A stretch of DNA of 44,891 nt from assembly GCA_027046965.1 (NCBI GenBank), contig JALTWR010000017.1, forward strand, positions 1 through 44,891. Direction: 5' to 3'. Origin of the DNA: Candidatus Altimarinota bacterium (GTDB lineage Bacteria > Patescibacteriota > Gracilibacteria > Absconditabacterales > Absconditicoccaceae). The notes under the pieces are model-generated. The model did no database searches. It worked only from the letters and a program-made list of their open reading frames with translations, and had not been told where the DNA came from. Position numbers and translations under genes: made by a program. Shown here one piece after another: positions 182 through 29,841 of this stretch; the stretch's first letter is position 1, and every line of letters begins with the position of its first letter.

Positions 182-2494
182 CTAAAAATTTAAATATTCC
201 CAATCTTCCGGTTTTTCTCTGAATGAAAAATATTCTTTTTTACTATTAATTCTAAAATGTTGCCCTTCTTTAATTATCAAACCACCAAAAAGATTCTTCC
301 CTTTTTTATTCTCTTCTTCTATATATTTTTGTAATGCTTCTGCTTTAAGTTTATTATTTTCTTCTCTATCACCACTTGCTTTTGTATCAAAAATTCCTAA
401 TCTACCATCTTTAAACATAACTAAAAAATCAGGTTGAAAAGTAGAAAAATCATTATATTTAATTCCGAAATTACTTCTCATGTGTTCATTTCCATTCTGC
501 CACCACCAAAGAATTTTATCTTCTTTTTGCTCTAAAAACTCTACAAATTCTTTCTCAATAGTACTATCAAAATTCAAATAAACCTTTTTATTGGTTGGAG
601 AAACATAAAGAGAAAACTTATAATCAAATGGCTTATAGATATATGGATTGTAATTTCTTGTTTCTTCTATTTCCCATTGTTCGTTCCATTCCTCCAATTC
701 TTCCATCTTCTTTTTGTTTTCTTCTTCTTTAATTGGTTTGTATTCTCTTATAGCTTTATCAAATAATTTAGAAAATATATCTGCATTATTTAAAACAATA
801 TTTTGAATATAGACTATTCCATTACTTGCTAAATTTATATTAAGATATTTTTTAAACCATCTATATAATGCTTGTTTAACTGTTGGGATTGATCTTTTAG
901 GAGCAAAACCATTAAGATTTATTTTTATAAGATTCTCAAAAATATAATAAAGATCTTCTTGTGATAGATTAGCTTTAATTGTTTGTTCTGAAATTATTTT
1001 GTTTTCGGTTAATTGATCAAAAGATTTAGTATCTAATTCTTTATTCAAAATAATCTCATCTTGGTTTTCTAATCCTTCTATATTTATTTTCTTCTTTAGT
1101 TTTTCTCTATTTTCGTTATAAGTGTTGAATTCGAATTTATTTTTCTCTATATCAAAAAATTCGCAGAAAACATCTTCTAAAACACTATAAAATGAAGACG
1201 TGATGTCCCCAAAATCGACTCTTTGTCTATAATAAGACCTTAATTTTAAAGGCTTATATATATCTTTTCTCTTAACAAATATTGATTTTATTATATTTGG
1301 GTTATAAGTTTCTTTTTTAACTTCTATACTTTTTACATTTGTATAAACATAACCTTTATTTAATATTTCATTTTTATAATGCTTTGCCTCTGGCATTCTT
1401 AAAATTCTACCAACCGTTTGAATTTCAAAGACAATACTTTTAATTTCTCTAAATCTAACCAAGATTTGAGCTCTTGGACAATCCCAACCAGTGTCTATTG
1501 CCTGTTTAAATATTAAAAATTCAACTTCACTTTCATTAGGGGTTACAAACTCTTTTTCATTATTAACTTTCTCTTCACTTAACCACACCGCTAATTTGTG
1601 ATTATCATAAGTTATACCTTTTGATGCCAAAAAGTTTTCAACAAACGCTTTTTTGTCTTCCCCCGCTTCGCCAGTAGGAATTTGAATTAAAACCAATGGA
1701 TTTACCTTGGAACCCTCTTGTTCATATAACTGCTTTAGTTGTTGTCTTTTTTGAAGAGCCGCTTCTAAAATCAATTCTTGAGAAGTTATTTCGTCATCGC
1801 TTATTTGATCAATATTTTCATTAATTACAATTTCCTTTTTTATCATGCCTTCCTCAATAACATCATTAGGTTGAACTACTACCTTTTCATTATATTCTCC
1901 CTCTCTTAAAACAGGGGTTGCACTCATTTCTATTGTTAAATCTGGTTGAATGACTTCATCTCTTAATTCTTTAGCTCTTTCACTTGTAGCATTTGAATGG
2001 CTTTCATCAATAACCATAATTATTGTTTTTCCTTCTTCTCTCGTATTTCTGATAACCTCTCTAAAATTCCACTTTTCACTATCTTTCATTAAAATATTTT
2101 TCCATTCTCCTGTTTGTTTATCTTTTGTTCTTAACTTCTCCCAATTAACAACAACTACTTCATTTTTATCTATTGAATCTTTAGAACCAAAATATTCTTG
2201 CTCTAATAAATGAACTTCTGGGAAACCTTGAAATTCTTTCTTTAAAGAATCATAAGATTGAATATGTAAATTACCTTTTCCTATACTAATCCACAAAAAG
2301 ACTAAATCTTTATCTTCTAATTCATCAACAATCTGTTCAATATATTTAGACATCATAAAAGTTTTTCCACTTCCCGTTGGGGACTGAAAAACAATAGTCT
2401 TCTTGTCTAGATTTTTCTCAAAAAGTAATTTTGTTTTTATGATTAACTCTCCAATAGCTTTTTCTTGATATCTTTTTAGTTCTTTTATTGCCAT
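182..2494 (-). CDS. res: Type III restriction enzyme, helicase/nuclease subunit (Res)
   Basis: A 770-residue protein with superfamily 2 helicase motifs in order: Walker A SPTGSGKT (38-45), motif II DESH (163-166), SATP (191-194), and motif VI QTVGRILRMP around residue 365. Near the C-terminus QPDFLVMF followed by GIFDTKA fits the PD-(D/E)xK nuclease signature. Known role: with Mod it translocates on DNA and cuts near two inversely oriented unmethylated sites, using ATP. It is somewhat shorter than the EcoP15I-type subunit (about 970). The gene starts 10 bases after mod ends, so the two form one operon. It contains no TGA and ends in TAG, so it reads the same in code 11 and code 25. Tryptophan is TGG and glycine GGN, which suggests an origin outside the code-25 lineage. 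Confidence 0.93.
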   Translation of the reverse strand: MAIKELKRYQEKAIGELIIKTKLLFEKNLDKKTIVFQSPTGSGKTFMMSKYIEQIVDELEDKDLVFLWISIGKGNLHIQSYDSLKKEFQGFPEVHLLEQEYFGSKDSIDKNEVVVVNWEKLRTKDKQTGEWKNILMKDSEKWNFREVIRNTREEGKTIIMVIDESHSNATSERAKELRDEVIQPDLTIEMSATPVLREGEYNEKVVVQPNDVIEEGMIKKEIVINENIDQISDDEITSQELILEAALQKRQQLKQLYEQEGSKVNPLVLIQIPTGEAGEDKKAFVENFLASKGITYDNHKLAVWLSEEKVNNEKEFVTPNESEVEFLIFKQAIDTGWDCPRAQILVRFREIKSIVFEIQTVGRILRMPEAKHYKNEILNKGYVYTNVKSIEVKKETYNPNIIKSIFVKRKDIYKPLKLRSYYRQRVDFGDITSSFYSVLEDVFCEFFDIEKNKFEFNTYNENREKLKKKINIEGLENQDEIILNKELDTKSFDQLTENKIISEQTIKANLSQEDLYYIFENLIKINLNGFAPKRSIPTVKQALYRWFKKYLNINLASNGIVYIQNIVLNNADIFSKLFDKAIREYKPIKEEENKKKMEELEEWNEQWEIEETRNYNPYIYKPFDYKFSLYVSPTNKKVYLNFDSTIEKEFVEFLEQKEDKILWWWQNGNEHMRSNFGIKYNDFSTFQPDFLVMFKDGRLGIFDTKASGDREENNKLKAEALQKYIEEENKKGKNLFGGLIIKEGQHFRINSKKEYFSFREKPEDWEYLNF
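185..195. repeat. Left copy of an 11-bp direct repeat bounding the mod-res cassette
   Basis: AAAATTTAAAT lies over the last codons of res. The same 11 bases in the same orientation occur at 4595-4605, just upstream of mod. The two copies sit at the two edges of the inserted cassette. The sequence is pure A/T in an AT-rich genome, so chance is not excluded; the placement is what makes it notable. Confidence 0.45.
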
Positions 2495-2504
2495 TTTACT
2501 ATTT

Positions 2505-4583
2505 TTAAATATTAAACTTTTCTATTAAAAACTTAACATGTCTATAAAAACTTTTTACCTGCTCTAAAGTGTATTCATCGTATTCACCGTGTGAAGCATG
2601 GTTTCCTATTGCTAAATAAGTTTGATTTTCTTGCCATTCTACTTGTGATAAAACATTTTGAGCTTTTAAAATATCGTTTAAATTTGATATTTTTATCTCC
2701 TTTCCTTTATCATTCAAAATACTTATTTGATTTAATTGAGCAATTTTTTGTAAAAGTTTTTCTAAAACGACTCTCAATATTTTTGCTCCTGTATCCTTAT
2801 CTTCATTCTCAAAAATTTGTTTTTTGGCTTTTTCTAAATCAATAAAAATTGTTTCTGTTCTGACTGGTATATTCATTTTAACTAATTGGCTATATATGTC
2901 CAATATCTTCTGCGGGATCGGCTCTATTGTAAAATCTTCTAATTCTGAAAATAGGGATTTATCTACTTTGTTATCAATAGAAAACATGTAAATAATTTTT
3001 TTGCTTTTCAACTTTTTAAGCTCTTTTAGAAATTCATTAAAACTATCATCAATAAAATTGTAATAAATACATAAAAATCTATCCTTTTTGTTGGAAGAAA
3101 ATATTTTATAATCTTCGCCTTCTTTTTCTAGGTTATATATATTTTCTTTTACACAAAGCATTTCTGTTGATTTTTGAGTAAGATCAACTTTTACTTGATC
3201 TCTATTTTTAGACTTTTTAATTAAAGAAGTTTTGAAATATTGGAGATTTCCACCTAAACCTTCTATCCATTCCCCATTACCGTTTTTTCTGTAGCCTTTT
3301 ATCACATTTTGTAATCTTGGATAACAAACTTCTGTTGCAATGTTACCTTCATTATTTGTAACTAAAATAAATTTTCTATTTCCTCCATCTTCTTTATTTA
3401 ATTCTAAAACTGCATGACCTGTTGTTCCCGAACCCGCAAAAAAATCTAGAATAATTGAATCTTTTTTTGTAGAGATAAATATTATGTACTTTAATAGTTC
3501 TAAAGGTTTAGGAGTTTCAAAAATACTTTCAGTAATATTTACATTTAATATCTGTTTTAACAATGCAGAAGCAGATTTATTACTTCCAATATTATTATAC
3601 AGAGTGTGGTTTCTGATGGTTGCCACTTTATTTGCGTATTTCTTAAGATTAATAATTTTATCTTTCCCCTTAAAAACGAATTTTCCTACAATATACCATT
3701 CCTTGTTATTATACAATACTTTTTTAGCATATTTTTTATAAATATCTATAAATGACATATTGGCAGAAATGTCTCCCATCATTTTTTTAACAGACGTAAT
3801 ATCTTTTGCCCATTTTCTTTTAAATCTTTTACTTCCATCAATTGAAGGAATTTCATACTTAAAACCACCATTTCTAACAGTAAAATCTTGAGTAGACCAA
3901 GCGCCATCAGGATCATTATCTAAATTAATAAAATTCTTAGTGTTGTTTGGTAATTCATTAAAACTTAATAGCTCTTTTCTTTTGGAATATATCAAGATAT
4001 AATCATGTCTAATATCAAAGTATTTTGCCATTGCCCTTGTAGCACCTGTTTGCCTAATAAAATTAGCAACAAAATTCTCTTCTCCAAAAATCTTATCCAT
4101 TAATAATTTTAATTGATACAGTTCATGATCATCAATAGATATAAAAATCACTCCATCATCTTTTAATAGCTCTTTTGCTAACCTTAATCTTTTTTCCATG
4201 AAATTAAGCCACTTGCTATGTCTATAACCATCATTTTTATCAACATATCTATCATTATATTTCCATTCATTTGCTTTACCAGTATTATAAGGCGGATCAA
4301 TATAAATAACATCAATCTTTCCTTTATGAGTATAATTAAGAACAGTTAAAGCATGATAATTATCTCCCTCAATTAAGATATTATCATCACTATCATCTGT
4401 TTTTATCTCTTTACTTTTGACTCTTTTTAAGACAGGCAAATGATTTTTACAGTCTAAAACAACCTTCTCAGGTTCCCTTTCACTATCCCAAACAAGTCCG
4501 TATTTTTTATTTTTTAATTCTATTTCTTGTTTTTCTATTATTCTTAAGAGTTCTTCTTTTGATAAGTGATAATATTTATTCAT
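2505..4583 (-). CDS. mod: Type III DNA-methyltransferase (Mod), adenine-N6, beta class
   Basis: A 692-residue methylase and specificity subunit. The catalytic motif IDPPYNTGK is at residues 95-103 and the SAM-binding motif FFAGSGTTGH at 381-390. That order (DPPY before FxGxG) defines the beta class typical of type III Mod. The stretch between them, about 200-350, should hold the target recognition domain; the site is not predictable from sequence alone. An N-terminal coiled segment (1-30) and the long C-terminal region (400-692) fit Mod dimerisation parts. It has no TGA and ends in TAA. It follows the Dam gene by 35 bases and precedes res by 10. The nearby code-25 genes use TGA freely, so this gene stands out from its surroundings. 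Confidence 0.95.
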   Translation of the reverse strand: MNKYYHLSKEELLRIIEKQEIELKNKKYGLVWDSEREPEKVVLDCKNHLPVLKRVKSKEIKTDDSDDNILIEGDNYHALTVLNYTHKGKIDVIYIDPPYNTGKANEWKYNDRYVDKNDGYRHSKWLNFMEKRLRLAKELLKDDGVIFISIDDHELYQLKLLMDKIFGEENFVANFIRQTGATRAMAKYFDIRHDYILIYSKRKELLSFNELPNNTKNFINLDNDPDGAWSTQDFTVRNGGFKYEIPSIDGSKRFKRKWAKDITSVKKMMGDISANMSFIDIYKKYAKKVLYNNKEWYIVGKFVFKGKDKIINLKKYANKVATIRNHTLYNNIGSNKSASALLKQILNVNITESIFETPKPLELLKYIIFISTKKDSIILDFFAGSGTTGHAVLELNKEDGGNRKFILVTNNEGNIATEVCYPRLQNVIKGYRKNGNGEWIEGLGGNLQYFKTSLIKKSKNRDQVKVDLTQKSTEMLCVKENIYNLEKEGEDYKIFSSNKKDRFLCIYYNFIDDSFNEFLKELKKLKSKKIIYMFSIDNKVDKSLFSELEDFTIEPIPQKILDIYSQLVKMNIPVRTETIFIDLEKAKKQIFENEDKDTGAKILRVVLEKLLQKIAQLNQISILNDKGKEIKISNLNDILKAQNVLSQVEWQENQTYLAIGNHASHGEYDEYTLEQVKSFYRHVKFLIEKFNI

Positions 4584-6233: not shown

Positions 6234-7106
6234 TTATATTCTTTGCACAATTCTCATCTTTGCACTTCTTGCAGCTTTATTATCTTTTATTTCTTCCCAA
6301 GTAGGTTTAATGACCTTTTTAGTACTAATTTTAATTTTACCCTGTGTAGCTAAATCCTTAAATACATTTTTTACTATTCTATCTTCTCAGCTATGATAAC
6401 TAATGATAGCCAATCTACCTCAAGCCCTCAAAAACTCACTAAATTTTTGCAGAAAAATTTCCAACTCTCTAAGCTCATCATTAACCATAATCCTTAAAGC
6501 TTGAAAAATAATTACCGCTTTTTTTTCACCTAAACCTAAATCATTCAAAAATTGCTTAAATTCTAGCGTTGTTTTCAGAGGATTTTTTCTCCATTGATCT
6601 AAAATTTCTTTGGCCAACCACTTAGAAAATTTAGGCCCAAAATCTCCATACTTCATAAATCCCCTAGATAAATAATCAAAGTCTCGACTTTTAATCGCCT
6701 GCCATAGAGGTCTTCAACTACTTCTATCAAATCTCATATCCAATTCTCCTTCTCATTTAATACTAAATCATCTATCAAAATCTTTAAAATGCTCCATATT
6801 AACGCCTAAATCCAAAAGCATAAAATCAACTTTTTGATTTCATAAAATCTTGTCTAATTGAGCATAACTTCAATTAATAAACTCAATCTTATCTGCAAAA
6901 TTTGATAATCTTGCTTTAGCTTTTTCCAAAATCTCACTATCCCTATCAACTCCATACCACTTTTTTATATCTCATCTTTTTTTCAAAATAGCTTTAGTAT
7001 GCCCTCAGTGTCACAAGGTTCCATCAAATCCGATTTCAAGTTTAGAAGGTAACCGTTCTAAAACTTCCTTTAACAAAACCGGTTGATGGTAATCACCAAA
7101 ATTCAT
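6234..7106 (-). CDS. rsmH: 16S rRNA (cytosine-1402-N4)-methyltransferase RsmH
   Basis: A 290-residue protein opening [19 protein letters not shown], the typical RsmH (MraW) start, followed by GFDGTLWHGGHTKAIL (SAM site), DFMLLDLGVNMEHF, RGFSIKGEGELDMRFD and AGGRLAIISYHSGEDRIVKN, all family signatures. The C-terminus KPTWEEIKDNKAARSAKMRI also matches (the usual P-x-x-E-E-x-x-x-N-x-R-x-R-S-A-x-L-R). Several of the conserved glycines are TGA. RsmH methylates C1402 in the P site of the small subunit with SAM. The start is the ATG that overlaps the secA stop by one base (TAATG), so translation is probably coupled to secA. Confidence 0.97.
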
Positions 7107-10100
7107 TATATATACTTTCAATGACATTTTTTAAATTTTTTGCCACTACCACATGGGCAGGGATCATTTGGTCCTACATTTTTGAAGTCCAAATGAGAAG
7201 TACCATCATCCAATGTAGATTCCACAAAATTTTCTATCACCTCGATGCCATCATCCTGATCTTGTTTTTCTTCCTGAGGCGTTTTTTTAGATGAAGGCGT
7301 AGGCATAGACGCAGCCTGCTGAGCGCCTTGTTGTAAAATATTTATCACTCCAGGTCTTCAACTTGTTCATTCCGTTGTATCAGATAATTCTGAGTGCTGT
7401 TGAGCTAAAAATGAAAAGTCTGTTTTAAAAGTGCGGGATAAAAATTCCTTCCTAATAGCAGACAAGAGCTTTTGGAACTTGTTAAAGGCTTCTTTTTTGT
7501 AAATAACTAATGGATCCTGTTGAGCATACCCATAAAGAGAAACCTTATCCCTTAAATATTGCATATCATCAATATGATCAATCCAATATCTATCAATTAC
7601 ATTTAAATATATCCTTTTTAAAAGTCCAGACAGTCACTCTCTAGGAAGATCTTTAAATTTTTCCTCTAGATTTTTACTTATCTCATCCACTAAAACTTGT
7701 TTGAGCTTTTTGGAATCCTTAATATTTTGGAATTTTTGTAGATCTATATCTATCCCAAATACTTCCTTGATTTGATTAATTAGCTCGTCAGCTTTAAATT
7801 GTTTTAAATCACCATATAAATCCACAATTTCTTGTACCTCTTTATCTATCAAACTTTTAATTTGCGCAAATATCCACTCAACATCTTCTTCCTCTCCAAA
7901 TAAAATTTTATCCCTAAGATCATAAATTCTCTCTCTTTGCTTGGATATCACACTGTCATAATCATATAAGTGACGTCTAATACTATAATGCCATGCTTCC
8001 ATCTGCTTTTGTGCTCTTTCTATATGAGAAGCCAAATACCCTCCATCACTCAGATCCATATCCTTGCCACCAAACTTTGACAATATTCCTTGAATCATAC
8101 CTCATCAAACTTTCCTCATCAATTCATCATCCAAGGCCACAAAGAATTGAGAAACACCGGGATCTCATTGCCTACCTGCACGACCACGAAGCTGGTTGTC
8201 TATACGTCTAGATTCATGCTTTTCGGTACCGAGTATAAACAAGCCATAATGAATATCTATTTTTTCAAGCTGTGGCTCCTCTTCTTTAGCAGGTCTTATT
8301 AAAATTTCAGCAAAAGGGTCCTCTTTTTCCTTTTTTTTCAAATTAAACTTAACTTTTATACTTGTATCTCCAGCAGTAACTCGCTCTCACTTCTCTGCCT
8401 TGATAATATCATCCTCTTTAAAGCCAAACTGCTCTCTCAACGCATCTATAGTAAGCTCAAACTCCTTTTGAGAATATACAACCCCTGAAACACCTTTTCA
8501 TTGCTTAATTTGAGAAGATATCCACTTAGCATAATTTTGAGCCAAGTACTGATTTAATCATGATTCCAATTTAATATCTGTACCACGTCAAGCCATATTA
8601 GTAGCAACAACTACCGATCATTTTTTACCAGCATTAGCCACTATTTGTGCTTCTTGCTCGTGATATTTAGCATTTAATACATAATGAGGTATATTTGCCT
8701 TTCTTAGCAATGAAGATACATATTCAGAAGTATTTATTGAAGATGTACCAATTAGTATCGGCTGTCCTATTTGATGATAAAATTTAATGTTTTTTAAAAC
8801 TTGTTGCCACTTCTGATTTTGGTCAAAAAATACTTTATCGGGCTTATCAACTCTAATTACAGGTTTGTTAGTTGGAATAGAAATTACCTCTAAACCATAT
8901 ATTTTTTCAAACTCTTCACCTTCTGTAGTAGCTGTACCAGTCATTCATGCAAGCTTTTTGTATTGCTTGAAAAAATGCTGATAAGTTATAGTCGCCAAAG
9001 TTTTGGATTCTCTTTGTATTTCAACTCATTCTTTAGCCTCAATTGCCTGATGCAATCACTCAGAATAACGTCTTCCAGGCATCGTACGTCATGTGTGCTC
9101 ATCTACAATCAGAACTTCTCCATCTCTAACAATATAATCTTTATCTTTGAGATACACTGCCTGAGCTTTAAGAGCATTTTCAATATGATGAATCTCTTGA
9201 TATCCTAAATCTCTATATAGATTGTCAACTTTTAATATTTCTTCAAGCTTCTTAATTCCTCTAGAAGTTAGTAAAACAGTCTTTTGTTTTTCATCAATAT
9301 AATAGTCGCATTCCTCTTCAGGCTCGTTTTTATCGTCAGAAAGAAGTTCAGCTAACAAACCTTTTGCCTTTTTCTTTTTACCTTTACAAGGTTGTAGAGC
9401 TTTAACAATTTGAGCGTAATAAACATATTTTTCCGTAGGTTCATCTGAAGGATGAGAAATTATAAGGGGGGTTCTTGCTTCATCTATCAAAATCGAATCA
9501 ACTTCGTCTACAATCGCATAATTCAAAGGACGCCAAATCAAAACCCTTTCTTTCACACTTTTTGCCAAATTGTCTCTAAGATAATCAAATCCGAGTTCTG
9601 AGTTTTCAACATAAGTTATATCCTTTTCATACTCTGCACGCCTTTGTTCCAAAGGAGTAAATTTAGTAACAGATCATACACTTAAACCTAACCAATTGTA
9701 CAAATAACCCATCCATTGAGCATCACGAGCTGCCAGATATTCATTAACTGTTACAATATGCACTCCTTTACCTTCCAAGGCATTAAGATATGCAGGTAAC
9801 GTAGCAACTAATGTTTTACCTTCACCAGTTTTCATCTCCGCAATCTTCCCCTGATGCAATACTATACCACCTATTAATTGGACATCATAAGGGACCATAT
9901 CCCACTTCATTTTTTGGCCTTTAACCTCTATTTCAGTCCCTACTAATCTTTTAGCTGCTTGTTTAACTGCTGCAAAGGCTTCAGGAAGTATATCATCAAG
10001 ACTTTCTCATTTTTGTAATCTTTGCTTAAATTCTTCCGTCTTTGCCTTTATTTGCTCATCTGAAAGGCTATCCCAGCTTTTATCTATCTCATTAATTTTT

Positions 10101-14350: not shown

Positions 14351-17197
14351 ATGGACATATTTGAATTCGAATTACGTCGATTGGCATATAATGGACTAAG
14401 TCAAAAATTTAATCTAGGGCTTAAGGAAGAAGAAATAATAAACCTTGTTAAAAAAAGGCCCATAAAAATACAAGGTAAACTACAAGATCTGAGCCCTGAT
14501 CAACTTAAAAAGAAAACTTTAGAAACCTATTCGGATCAAAAAAAATCTTTTATAAAAAAATCAGAGGGGCAAAAAATAGGTAAATTTTCTCTGGCAGACT
14601 ATATCAATCGCTTAGAATATGAACTCTTTGTAATTCATAAAATGGGCTATGATACCTATTTTTTGATCGTACAAGATTATATAAACCGAGCCAAAAAAAA
14701 TAAAATCGCAGTAGGAACCGGTAGGTGATCAGCTGCGGGAAGCTTGCTATCTTATCTAATATGAATTACTGATGTTGATCCCATGCCCTATGATCTACTT
14801 TTTGAAAGATTCCTTAACCCTGCCCGCGTATCCATGCCTGATATAGATACTGATTTTGAAGATGAGCTCAGAGATAGGGTCATAGATTACGTTAGAGAAA
14901 AATATGGAGAACAAAAAGTCGCAAGGATTGGTACATATATGAAACTTGCTCCAAGAGCGGCCTTTAAAGATGTTGCCAGAATAAAAGGTATAAAATTTGA
15001 TATGGCAAACAAAATTTCAGCTATGATCGAAGGGAAAACTTTACAACAATCTGTAGAAGAATCTCCTTCATTGCAAGAATTAATAGAAGCAGACCCAAAA
15101 ATAAAAGAAATTATAGATTTGGCTTCTCAACTCGAATGAAATATTAGGCAAGTTTGAGTCCATGCCTGCTGAGTAATTATTTCCCCAAAACCTGCTATAA
15201 ACTATACTCCTCTTCAATATCCACCTAAGGGCAATAAAAAAGAATATGTAACACAATATGATGGCCATGTATTAGAAGATATTTGACTTTTAAAAATGGA
15301 TTTTTTAGGGTTAAGAAATTTAAGCATTATCAAAAATACGCTAAAAATCATTAGAGCTAAGTACAAAGAAGAAAACAAGCAGCTTCCCAAGCTAATACAG
15401 GAGTTTTTTGACACCATGAACTTTCATCCACCTTTGGAAGACAAAAAAACTTTTGAGATATTCCAAAAATGAGATACCTCAGGTGTATTCCAGTTTGAAT
15501 CAGACTGAATGAAAAATTGGCTAAAACAACTTAAACCAACAAATATTGATGATATTATAGCAATGGTAGCACTATACCGCCCAGGACCTATGGCATTTAT
15601 ACCTAGCTACATTGATAGAAAACATTGAAAAGAAAAAATTTCTTATATGTCTGAGGAGCTCAAAGAAATTTTATCCAAAAAATACTCCCCAGAGGAAGTT
15701 ATTCAGGAAGAAAAAAAACTAACCGAAGACCTTTCCCCATTTATGGATATCACTTACTGAATTCCAGTATACCAAGAACAACTTATGAGACTTGTTCAAG
15801 CTATGGCAGGGTTTTCTTTGGCTGAAGCAGACTTGCTAAGACGTTGAGTTGGTAAAAAGATCAAAGAATTGATCGAAAAAATTAAGAAAGATTTTGTTAA
15901 AAAAGCTCAAGAATACCGTAACTACAAGCCAGAAACAGCAGATTATATTTATGAAAAAATGATAATGCCTGCTGCAAGATATAGTTTTAACAAGTCTCAT
16001 GCTGCTTGCTATGCACTTATAGCCTACCAGACCGCATATCTAAAAGCTCATTATCCTCTTGAATTCCATGCAGCCCTTTTAAGGTCAGTTGAGGAAGATA
16101 CCGATAAATTAGCAAAATTCATAAATGAGCTTCAAATCAAATGATTCAACATTACTCCACCTTCTGTCAACAAATCCTTTGCTCATATGGCAGCAGTATG
16201 AGACCAGATTGTATTATGACTAAATGCAATAAAAGGTTTAGGAATCGAAGTTGCTAACGCTATTGAAGAAGAGAGAGTCAAAAATTGACCCTACAAATCC
16301 TTGGAAGACTTCCTAAAAAGAAATAAAAAAATAATTAATAAAAAATTATTAGAAGCTCTCACATATTCATGAGCTTTGGATGAATTTGTAGATAGAAATC
16401 TTATATTAAAAAACTTAGAGGATATACTCAATTGGATAAAAGTAATAAATGCAAATGAATGAAGCATAGGACTTTTTGGAGCCATCGATGATCATCCATT
16501 AGTCCTTAAACCCCAAAATAAAATTACTAAAGAAGAAAAACTTTTACAAGAATTTAATTCCTTCAAAACCTTTGTCTCATCTCACCCTTTTGATGGATTG
16601 TACAAGTTTTTGAAATGAAAATTTCTACCAATCTCTACACTTTATGATGAAAAAACAAAAGGTAAAGTAGAAATCATAGGACTAGTAAAAGAAATCACAC
16701 CATTTAGGAGGAAAGGCTTCTTTTTGACGCTTGAAGACGTGAGTTGAGAAATAGATATTTATCTTCCAGATAGGTTAAATATTAACAAATTTGATGTTAT
16801 TGTGGTAAAATGAACTAAAAATACTAGACTAAGACCATCACAAATAATAAAAATAGACCTAGAAGAGATGATAAACTATGCAAAAAAAGCAGGCAAATAT
16901 GATGAAAAACTTAAGGTTTCTAAAGTTAGGAAAGAAAGAGCCAATTGAACTAGTTCATCAAAATCTCAATCTCAACCTATCACCAACATTTCTGCTCCCA
17001 CAAATTTAGAGTTCAAATTACCTAGTGATATTGAAATATTAAAACAAATTAAATATATTACTCAAACTCTACAAGGAGATATTGAGATAAAAATTGAGGG
17101 AATTCCTTTTAAAGTGTCTCCTCAGGGACTAAAAGCAATCCAAGATTTACTAGCTAATAAAAAGACAAATGGAACAAATAATCAATCTATTGTCTAA
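14351..17197 (+). CDS. dnaE: DNA polymerase III alpha subunit lacking the PHP domain
   Basis: A 948-residue C-family replicative polymerase. It begins directly at the segment that follows the PHP domain in other DnaE proteins ([15 protein letters not shown]). Then come the palm motifs IAVGTGRGSAAGS (Gly126 is TGA), [15 protein letters not shown], and catalytic PDIDTDF (163-169), followed by [41 protein letters not shown] and [21 protein letters not shown]. The motif GSIGLFG fits a sliding-clamp binding site. An OB domain follows ([13 protein letters not shown]), then a C-terminal tail. About 21 TGA codons encode Gly. The usual length is about 1150; the missing roughly 270 residues match PHP. 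Upstream there is only a 57-base gap after trmI, so PHP is not hidden there. A GGAAG ribosome site precedes the ATG. Confidence 0.96.
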
Positions 17198-26683: not shown

Positions 26684-26723
26684 TTTGATTTTTATTTTTG
26701 ATTAAAATCTGTATTTTTAACTA

Positions 26724-26751
26724 TGTATAAAAGTTTAAATATATTTTGAAA
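26724..26751 (-). promoter_or_regulatory. Possible ppk2 operon promoter
   Basis: Minus strand: TTTCAA, a 16-base spacer, then TATACA. The -35 is poor. It lies in the 76-bp divergent gap shared with the alkyltransferase-like fusion gene. Confidence 0.3.
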
Positions 26752-26759
26752 TAAAGCAA

Positions 26760-27575
26760 ATGAAAAAACATTTAGTATTAGAGCTCCTGCAGATTATACC
26801 TGATGGGAAAGTAATATCTTATAAAACATTATCTTTAATTTTTAACCTTCACCCTAGAGAAATAGCAAATATTTTAAAAAACAACAATCAACAAGATATA
26901 TATCCTTGCTATAAGGTGGTAAATAGTGATTGAAGTGTATGAGGTTACAACTTATGAGTAAAAGAAAAAATCAAAAGACTCGCTGATGAAGGAATATACC
27001 TTCGAGATGGGAAAGTTCCTAGAGAAAATTTTTGGAGACCAGAGTTATTTAATTTTTTTGTGTGATTTCCCCTCGATTTTAAAAACCAAGAAAAATTTGA
27101 AAGTGCTACTAGGAAGCTAGACGCTCATATACCTCCAGAAGCTGCTACTATTCAGCTAAAATCCCCTCATGTAACTCTTAGATTTTTTGGTAAAATGAGC
27201 ATACAAAGATTCCACACAATCATAGACAAAACAATTAAAAACTTCAAACTCAATCAACACCTTACAGATACCTTTGAAGAAATATGAGATTTTGAAGGTC
27301 GCGTATGGTTTTGGCAACCTCCAAAAACAAATTTTGATCAGCGAGAAAAAATTTATCAGCTATACCACAAAGCAATTGATTATCGTCCTGAACAAAGACC
27401 TTATTATCCTCACCTTACTGCGCTTAGAGCTAAAGAAGAATTCCAGCAATACAAAGATACTGCATTGGAGATTATGAAAAATTATTCTTTTGAGATCAAC
27501 ACTCAAAGACTCACCTTTTATGCTGCACTGGATAATATTTACCAAGTTCCTCTTATAGAAGTGGAACTATCTTAA
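26760..27575 (+). CDS. Fusion of an alkyltransferase-like DNA-binding domain with a 2H phosphoesterase (LigT-like)
   Basis: A 271-residue protein of two parts. Residues 1-88 match the DNA-binding/active-site domain of O6-alkylguanine-DNA alkyltransferase: IIPDGKVISYKTLSLIF, then PCYKVVNSDGSVGGY, then KRLADEGIYLRDGKV. The reactive Cys (Cys50) is present, but the usual His of PCHR is Tyr. Residues 95-271 resemble a 2'-5' RNA ligase/cyclic phosphodiesterase: FVGFPLDFKNQEKFESA, HVT (137-139) and HLT (218-220), the two HxT motifs that define 2H enzymes. A DNA-damage sensor joined to an RNA/nucleotide phosphoesterase is unusual. TGA encodes several glycines, including three in the PCYKVV-to-GV segment. 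It ends 9 bases inside the convergent truB gene. Confidence 0.85.
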
Positions 27576-28287: not shown

Positions 28288-29841
28288 ATGAATACAATTA
28301 AAAAGATTTTCAGCATAGGAATTATCTTTTCAATTTTTTGAACATTAGGTCTTTGACTTGTGACTGCTTGAGAGAGTCTAGACAATTACGTCAAAAATAA
28401 TATTGACTATATTAGTACCTCATCTCTGCCCCTAAGACTTCGAAAGCCTTATCCCTCCAAAAATAAAAAAATCTATCTAGTATTTGGCACCACCATGGCA
28501 TTATCTCCACAAAATTATAACGATGCTAGCCTAATCAAATATATTTCTCAAAGCCCTTCCAATTTTTTAGGAGTATTTCAAGGAGATAACTTAGTATATA
28601 TAATTGATCTCTCTAAATCTAAATATAGCAAAACTTGCTTGCCAGTCAACGACAAAAAAAGCAAACTTATATCATCACTTTATAACATAAAAAAGTATCC
28701 TAAAGCAATCACTGTTCTTTTGGGAGATCCAACTAGTATTCAAATACCAGAATGCTATCAAAATGAGAACTTTTACATAGTACCCAAAACAACACTTGCA
28801 GCTACAGATGCCTACCAGACCTACAAATATTCCCAACAGATATCAGACAATATACTCAATTACCCCTTAAACAATCAGGATTCTTTGCTAAAAAACTTAT
28901 ACAACTTAGTATTGGAATTTACAAGCTATGATTATGAAACCCTCAAAAAATATGGCAATGGAACGTCCCCTACAGATATGACTCCTTGGTTAGGAAGCTC
29001 TGTATTTTTGAAAAATAAGGTTGTATGTGATGGTTATGTCAAAGCCTTTTATAGTCTTATTAGATATTTTGGCTTAGGCAACCCTATAAGAGAAGTTGGG
29101 AAACTTCAAACCCCTGATGCCCAAAATTTGGGTCAGAGAGAGCTTTTGCATTCACGAATCAAACTAAATGGAAGATATTTTGACCCAACTTTTGATGATA
29201 TGCAAGACAAAAACAACTCATTATATTTTAATCTTCCTAGGAGCTGTTTTGTGATCAATCATTACAAACAATGACGAGAAAAATTGGATACTACTTCACA
29301 AAGACTTGCATATATCACCAATCATTATTGAGAATTATTAAATGAATGTCCTCAAATAGTTATAAAAACCACAGCAAACGATGGAACCTTAACTCAAATT
29401 ATTCAACACCATTTAAACCAAGGATATTCTCCTAGTTTAATCTCTCCTATATTGTGTAAGGAGTTTAACATATGTTTACAGACCTCTGATCCCCAAAAAT
29501 TTGTGGAAACCCTCAAAAAGTATACTCTAACAATATCTTCTTGAAAGAAACAACACAAAATAAGTTTTAAAAGCTTATCTTTGCCATCTTCAACCAATGT
29601 TTCTCGTCCTCTAGGTCCTTCCCAAGCTCAGCAAAATACCTCTCAATATCAACTATCTCTCAAACAAAAGTTACAAATAAATATGATACTATCCGACTAT
29701 TTCAAAAAATTGCCAGCTAGCGAAAAAGATATTACCAAAAAAAGATTGAAAAACATCCTAGGATCATACAACCTCAAAAATCTTTCACCTCAAAAAAGAG
29801 CTATTATAGATTATATTTTAGAAATTTTACCATCATTATAG
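28288..29841 (+). CDS. Secreted transglutaminase-like cysteine protein
   Basis: A 517-residue protein with an N-terminal membrane/signal segment (about 8-28). A transglutaminase-core triad is visible: VCDGYVKAFYSLIRYFGL (Cys247), LLHSRIKLNGRYFDPTFDD (His288 and Asp299). In the family this region makes or breaks amide bonds, or acts as a protease. The first 230 residues contain a separate alpha/beta segment (IYLVFGTTMALSPQNY, VTVLLGDP) that I do not recognise. The C-terminal part is Ser/Gln-rich and then helical. It would act on the cell surface. TGA codons (for example in FGTLGLG) confirm code-25 coding. Its stop overlaps the obg stop by 6 bases. Confidence 0.75.

Follow-up and report, generated by a model that had tools for sequence, protein, structure and literature searches.

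A candidate two-enzyme repair protein of Gracilibacteria that joins an AGT-type alkyltransferase domain to a ThpR/LigT-type 2H phosphoesterase domain

A single gene of an uncultured bacterium related to Gracilibacteria encodes a protein that consists of an N-terminal alkyltransferase (AGT) domain and a C-terminal 2H phosphoesterase domain of the ThpR/LigT type. The gene is located in a stretch of 44,891 nucleotides (the window), which is contig C17 of genome G000 (0.85 Mb, about 95% complete; 94.8%); among named organisms, Gracilibacteria are the closest to it. At least three genera of one family contain this fusion. It appears to be a new domain architecture, closest to the known fusions of AGT with endonuclease V (EndoV), and it appears to be undescribed. 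In agreement with the original prediction, which knew of no such system, no paper on both families and no description of a fusion of AGT with ThpR/LigT were found in the literature; subscription papers were thinly covered, and an earlier mention is possible. The features of the gene are as follows.

26760–27575, plus strand: fusion gene (protein P0001), 271 residues under NCBI code 25, ATG start, TAA stop, intact frame
26760–27038, plus strand: AGT C-terminal-type domain with HTH, residues 1–93, identified by Pfam, PDB AGTs, AlphaFold and Foldseek
26898–26924, plus strand: active-site motif DIYPCYKVV; the coordinates cover residues 47–55 (IYPCYKVVN), with Cys50 at 26907–26909
27048–27572, plus strand: 2H phosphoesterase domain of the ThpR/LigT type, residues 97–271, identified by TIGR02258, hhalign and a profile match to 2H structures in the PDB
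27168–27176, plus strand: first HxT motif, H137-V-T139 (PHVTLRFFG), from the alignment to E. coli LigT
27411–27419, plus strand: second HxT motif, H218-L-T220 (PHLTALR), from the alignment to E. coli LigT
26684–26759, no strand: intergenic region of 76 bp shared with a divergent PPK2 gene (ORF coordinates; PPK2 by Pfam)

That an AGT-type and a LigT-like domain share one frame had been proposed from the DNA letters, and Pfam, TIGR02258 and the code-25 translation agree with it. The motifs named at that time, i.e. PCYKV with Cys50, SDGSVGGY, and the HxT motifs at 137–139 and 218–220, are all in place.

The reading frame depends on the genetic code. Under the standard code, the plus strand of 26760–27575 is broken by five TGA codons, whereas code 25 yields one frame. 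The five in-frame TGA codons correspond to G58, G61, G66, G102, and G176, and neither TAA nor TAG occurs inside the gene. TGA encodes 280 of 810 glycines (about 35%) in the remaining listed genes, from which the type III restriction-modification genes were excluded, and five of eleven in the fusion gene. Because TGA is used for about 35% of the glycines elsewhere, and because the TGA-coded residues G61 and G66 occupy columns that are invariant in an alignment of the three fusions, code 25 (UGA = Gly) is the right reading of the window. The reassignment of UGA to glycine has been reported for BD1-5, and Gracilibacteria are known users of code 25 (PMC4032931). A type III restriction-modification pair at 182–4583 on the minus strand (Res, 770 residues; Mod, 692 residues) shows a different codon usage: TGA is found at none of its 64 glycines, whereas the other genes use it for 35% (about 2e-12 by chance), and the GC content is lower (0.26–0.27). 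This pair, whose translation is identical under code 25, looks like a recent acquisition from a standard-code organism.

The N-terminal half was assigned to the AGT family by Pfam DNA_binding_1 (PF01035), which matches residues 5–79 with an E-value of 1.1e-15 and 57.6 bits (cut-off 27); the TIGR00589 score of 40.6 bits is slightly below the cut-off of 46.4. In an alignment of residues 1–93 with AGTs from the PDB, Y21 corresponds to the base-flipping Tyr, R33 to the arginine finger, N42 to the Asn hinge, P49-C50 to the Pro-Cys of the nucleophile, and Y63 to Tyr158; E77 is also part of the AGT domain. C50, N42, R33, and Y21 are invariant across the three fusions, and the string D-I-Y-P-C-Y-K-V is invariant in about 12–13 aligned AGT domains from other genomes. 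In place of His146 of the human catalytic set C-H-E the window protein contains a Tyr, and in place of the Arg a Lys, so that the motif reads PCYKV rather than PCHRV. With His146 replaced by Tyr, the activation of the Cys must differ or be weak. An AlphaFold model calculated with related AGT domains has pLDDT values of 84–97 at residues 1–90, which is the sole confident part of the whole-protein model. When residues 1–90 were submitted to Foldseek, the alkyltransferase-like protein (ATL) of S. pombe (3gva) was the best match, and many AGTs were matched as well, for example 4zye. Structure prediction, which had been suggested as a check, thus yielded an AGT/ATL fold for residues 1–90 and a model of low confidence for the 2H half.

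The substitution of the conserved His had been seen correctly at the outset, but it is not peculiar to the window protein. Among the AGT-domain sequences from related genomes, PCYKV is the commonest motif, with 38 listed entries compared to 24 for PCHRV; a few entries of the listing are duplicate reads of one gene. In the AGT tree, the PCYKV group includes the fusions, the AGT-EndoV proteins L016 and L022, and proteins in which a TfoX_N domain precedes the AGT domain. Since PCYKV is the commonest motif and is shared with the AGT-EndoV fusions, the Tyr is a lineage trait. Judging by motif and tree, YPCYKV is the usual motif in a clade of short AGTs of Gracilibacteria that lack the N-terminal domain, a clade that includes the AGT-EndoV fusions. 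The latter comprise a bacterial protein from Fraserbacteria (L016) and an archaeal one from Thermoplasmata (L022), both with the same YPCYKV as the AGTs of Gracilibacteria. Fusions of a TfoX N-terminal domain with a YPCYKV AGT domain were seen in Gracilibacteria in L017, L018, and L021; Pfam was run on L017 only, and L021 was recognized by sequence alone.

In ATLs, the nucleophilic Cys is replaced, usually by Trp. The original prediction had offered both names for the DNA-binding domain; the assignment to AGT stands, and membership in the ATL class was rejected, as Cys50 is kept and invariant and true ATLs with a PWxRV motif are encoded by separate genes within the same family (L078–L083). According to a review, the N-terminal domain of AGT is dispensable for alkyl transfer, and O6-alkylguanine is repaired in Ferroplasma by a C-terminal AGT domain that is joined to EndoV (PMC10779285).

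The C-terminal half is less similar to its relatives. Pfam LigT_PEase matches the window protein with an E-value of 7.6e-5, at the curated cut-off, and TIGR02258 (ThpR) matches residues 99–253 with an E-value of 1.3e-8 and 34.9 bits, which is below the curated equivalog cut-off of 65.7 bits. A profile of the 2H parts of all three fusions gave an hhalign probability of 97.8 (E 7e-13) when compared with seven bona fide ThpR proteins above the cut-off, and it also matched 2H structures in the PDB, among them AKAP7 (E 1.9e-4). The spacing of the HxT motifs aligns with H43xT45 and H125xT127 of E. coli LigT/ThpR; F142 aligns with Phe48 and R223 with Arg130 of the same enzyme, two residues that crystal structures show to stack against the base and to hold the phosphate, respectively (PMC5283653). 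The AlphaFold model is of low confidence beyond residue 90, the input alignment being without usable 2H relatives. By these profile comparisons, the 2H domain of the window protein is a divergent member of the ThpR kind. In a tree of 2H domains, those of the three fusions are mutually nearest and the next rows are ThpR proteins of the class, with weak support; the trees of both domains contain too few columns to support a single origin of the fusion. A stand-alone 2H protein of the same family is encoded at 6819–7388 on the minus strand of L117 (G003); it matches 2_5_RNA_ligase2 better than LigT and is devoid of an AGT domain.

The full fusion was found in G000, G002, and G027, which represent three genera among the 49 genomes of the family, and Pfam confirmed both domains, including LigT_PEase, in all three proteins. 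The fusion of G002 (genome about 100% complete) has 276 residues and that of G027 (76% complete) has 316 residues with about 38 extra residues in the linker; their identities to the window protein are 36% and 44%. Functional positions are preferentially conserved: of a set of 14 residues fixed in advance on the basis of human AGT and E. coli LigT, 11 are invariant among the fusions, whereas across the whole protein this holds for 66 of 271 positions (p 2e-5). The substitutions at the remaining three are conservative, with Asp for E77, Tyr for F99, and Lys for R223. PF01035 and TIGR02258 were each matched once in G000 and once in G002, and every one of these matches is the fusion itself. No further fusion was detected among 288 genomes of the class, and in a set of 380 genomes of the phylum only that of the window was found. 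On their own, AGT domains and ThpR proteins are both common in the searched genomes. By the class and phylum searches, the fused architecture is not common. The fusion was absent from phage and plasmid collections, where tblastn gave matches to AGT only; viral contigs yielded no relative when scanned with the fusion alignment, and one ThpR-like locus without AGT (L152) when scanned with the 2H alignment. A phage or plasmid origin was rejected on the basis of these searches.

The neighbours of the fusion differ in all three genomes and are ordinary housekeeping genes. In the window, the gene stands single between the divergent PPK2 gene on one side and a convergent truB on the other, and the ORF coordinates within the window reveal no same-strand operon. 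In G002, the fusion is located about 10 nt downstream of a gene which we take from its sequence to be dapA; in G027, it is convergent with what is presumably a ribosomal-protein/rpoA cluster. As the context is not conserved across the three genomes, no function can be deduced from the neighbourhood. Two other genes of the window deserve mention. The DNA polymerase III alpha gene at 14351–17197 on the plus strand (948 residues) has Pfam matches to the polymerase and finger domains and none to the PHP domain; a different gene lies directly upstream, and the N-terminal PHP part is consequently absent or encoded elsewhere. At 28288–29841 on the plus strand, a protein of 517 residues is encoded that is probably secreted and for which Pfam gave nothing at 1e-5; a similarity to transglutaminase-like domains near VCDGYVKAFYSLIRYFGLG was noted by eye only.

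Outside the fusions, the two families meet in genus g36 (family f3; same class, standard code), where in two species the thpR and AGT genes are separate and overlap, thpR covering the start of the AGT gene.

L054 (G246), 1483–2332, minus strand: overlapping thpR/AGT pair, genus g36
L146 (G522), 1806–2592, plus strand: overlapping thpR/AGT pair, genus g36

Upstream of the pair we presume an acylphosphatase gene in one species and a PEBP-like gene in the other. The overlap is a second, independent pairing in an order opposite to that of the fusion, albeit one that is statistically near chance. A third ThpR gene of f3 (G631) has no AGT within its locus. Two further pairs (G104, G365), each on a single contig with 3–4 kb between the genes, look unconnected. 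In the phylum set, both families are present in 91 of 380 genomes compared to 76 expected, a difference that is uncorrected for relatedness and genome size. Leaving the fusion aside, 90 phylum genomes possess both genes, and in one of them the two are adjacent, with 0.1–0.2 expected; adjacency as a general signal was rejected, as genus g36 (G246, G522) alone shows it. A ThpR gene of the class (L124, from a genome of f6) follows lepA, which is a translation setting and not one of repair. The radiation-induced cinA-ligT-recA operon of Deinococcus includes LigT (PMC5552922), which is published support for a role of ThpR near DNA repair. The three fusion genomes yielded neither RtcB nor Tpt1 (G027 being only 76% complete), and hence a ligation or 2'-phosphate removal step, and with it a complete RNA-sealing pathway, is not evident.

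It is moderately probable that the fusion is a two-enzyme nucleic-acid repair protein, which combines alkyl transfer to Cys50 with the hydrolysis of 2',3'-cyclic phosphates. The AGT half would be a minimal alkyltransferase that retains the Cys and shares its lineage with the AGT parts of the AGT-EndoV proteins; it would bind nucleic acid by means of its HTH, flip out O6-alkylguanine, and move the alkyl group onto Cys50, once only. In the ThpR-type 2H half, H137 and H218 would open 2',3'-cyclic phosphate ends to give 2'-phosphates, the substrate being RNA ends or ribonucleotides in nicked DNA. From the sequences, we infer that both halves are active, that they deal with a common type of damage, and that the fusion serves their joint recruitment or expression. 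When phosphates of RNA are alkylated, the chain can break with 2',3'-cyclic phosphate ends as a result, and alkylation stress would be a chemically reasonable common theme of both halves. A narrower proposal is that the protein is a dedicated alkylation-damage enzyme, which reverses O6-alkylguanine and heals, on the same strand, the 2',3'-cyclic phosphate left by alkylation breakage of RNA or of a ribonucleotide in DNA. We regard this version as speculative and distinctly doubtful; if true, it would link base repair to RNA-end healing in one protein.

The AGT half might instead act as an adaptor that transfers no alkyl group and delivers the 2H enzyme to lesions or nucleic acid, as ATLs recruit excision repair. 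The Tyr next to the Cys, the missing AGT N-terminal domain, and the non-transferring S. pombe ATL (3gva) as top structural match are all compatible with this role, and the occurrence of this AGT lineage in fusions with TfoX_N and EndoV points to a portable binding module. However, none of the three fusions deviates at Pro49 or Cys50, YPCYKV is invariant across 12 related domains, the true ATLs of the same family have lost the Cys to PWxRV, and AGT fusions without the N-terminal domain can be active (PMC10779285). An adaptor without transferase activity is thus possible, although we would not expect it. Somewhat less probable, and in our opinion unlikely, is a fusion for reasons of economy, in which two unrelated housekeeping enzymes of a reduced genome share one chain without being coupled and the 2H half belongs to tRNA or RNA metabolism. 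The genome size of 0.85 Mb, the related class-specific ThpR gene after lepA (L124, f6), the difference of about 38 residues between the linkers, and the wide separate distribution of AGT and ThpR would fit such an arrangement. It is at variance with the independent overlapping gene pair of g36, though as a single event this is near chance, and with the co-occurrence of 91 versus 76 expected, in which relatedness and genome size are uncorrected.

The two remaining explanations carry little weight. The original prediction had suggested a link between damage detection and the processing of a cyclic nucleotide or an RNA end, and a role in signalling, defence or anti-defence would mean that the 2H half cleaves a signal nucleotide while the AGT half senses DNA damage. 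Some viral 2H enzymes do act on 2-5A, and the 2H part of the G027 fusion weakly matches Corona_NS2A. A connection to nucleotide signalling found no support, however: PADLOC gave no match, no defence genes adjoin the window fusion, its neighbours are housekeeping genes, no copy was found in the phage and plasmid collections, and ThpR proteins from within the class are its closest 2H relatives. We therefore consider such a role very improbable. An assembly or sequencing error that merged two genes could be suspected, because the genomes are metagenome-derived and the frame requires a non-standard code. Yet three independent genomes have the fusion, each time in one frame and with identities to the window protein of 36–44%; one of these genomes is a single contig, and the code is supported by all resident genes. 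A frameshift or assembly merger was rejected on these grounds, and its probability is practically negligible.

Each of the two domains is old and well known separately, and it is the joined form that appears to be new. The conservation of a fusion strongly hints that both activities are required jointly; still, the AGT-2H protein would constitute a new system only if the two activities prove to be coupled. Together with the overlapping thpR-AGT pair of g36, the fusion offers a handle on the cellular role of ThpR/LigT, and on the question why, as in cinA-ligT-recA of Deinococcus, this enzyme sits in DNA-damage operons. The fusion is further evidence for the YPCYKV alkyltransferase without N-terminal domain as a reusable module, which occurs alone and in the combinations AGT-EndoV, TfoX_N-AGT, and AGT-2H.

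Among known systems, AGTendoV of Ferroplasma acidarmanus and its relatives L016 and L022 most resemble the fusion: an N-terminal AGT without N-domain is followed by a second nucleic-acid enzyme, and L016 and L022 contain YPCYKV and belong to the same AGT clade. In contrast, their second domain is endonuclease V, a DNA/RNA nuclease acting at deaminated bases, and not a 2H phosphoesterase; Pfam Endonuclease_5 matches L016 and L022 and does not match P0001. E. coli ThpR/LigT (PDB 4qak, 5ldi) shares with the fusion both HxT motifs at matching spacing and the correspondence of Phe48 to F142 and of Arg130 to R223. The fusion differs from it by a divergent sequence below the TIGR02258 cut-off, by the N-terminal AGT domain, and, in G002, by a Lys in place of Arg130. 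The ATLs (S. pombe Atl1, E. coli YbaZ) likewise have a short AGT fold without the AGT N-terminal domain and provide the best Foldseek match; unlike the fusion, which keeps Cys50, they lack the nucleophilic Cys. Finally, the stand-alone YPCYKV AGTs and the TfoX_N-AGT proteins of Gracilibacteria agree with the fusion in AGT lineage, bacterial class, and motif, whereas the 2H domain is found in the fusion and not in them.
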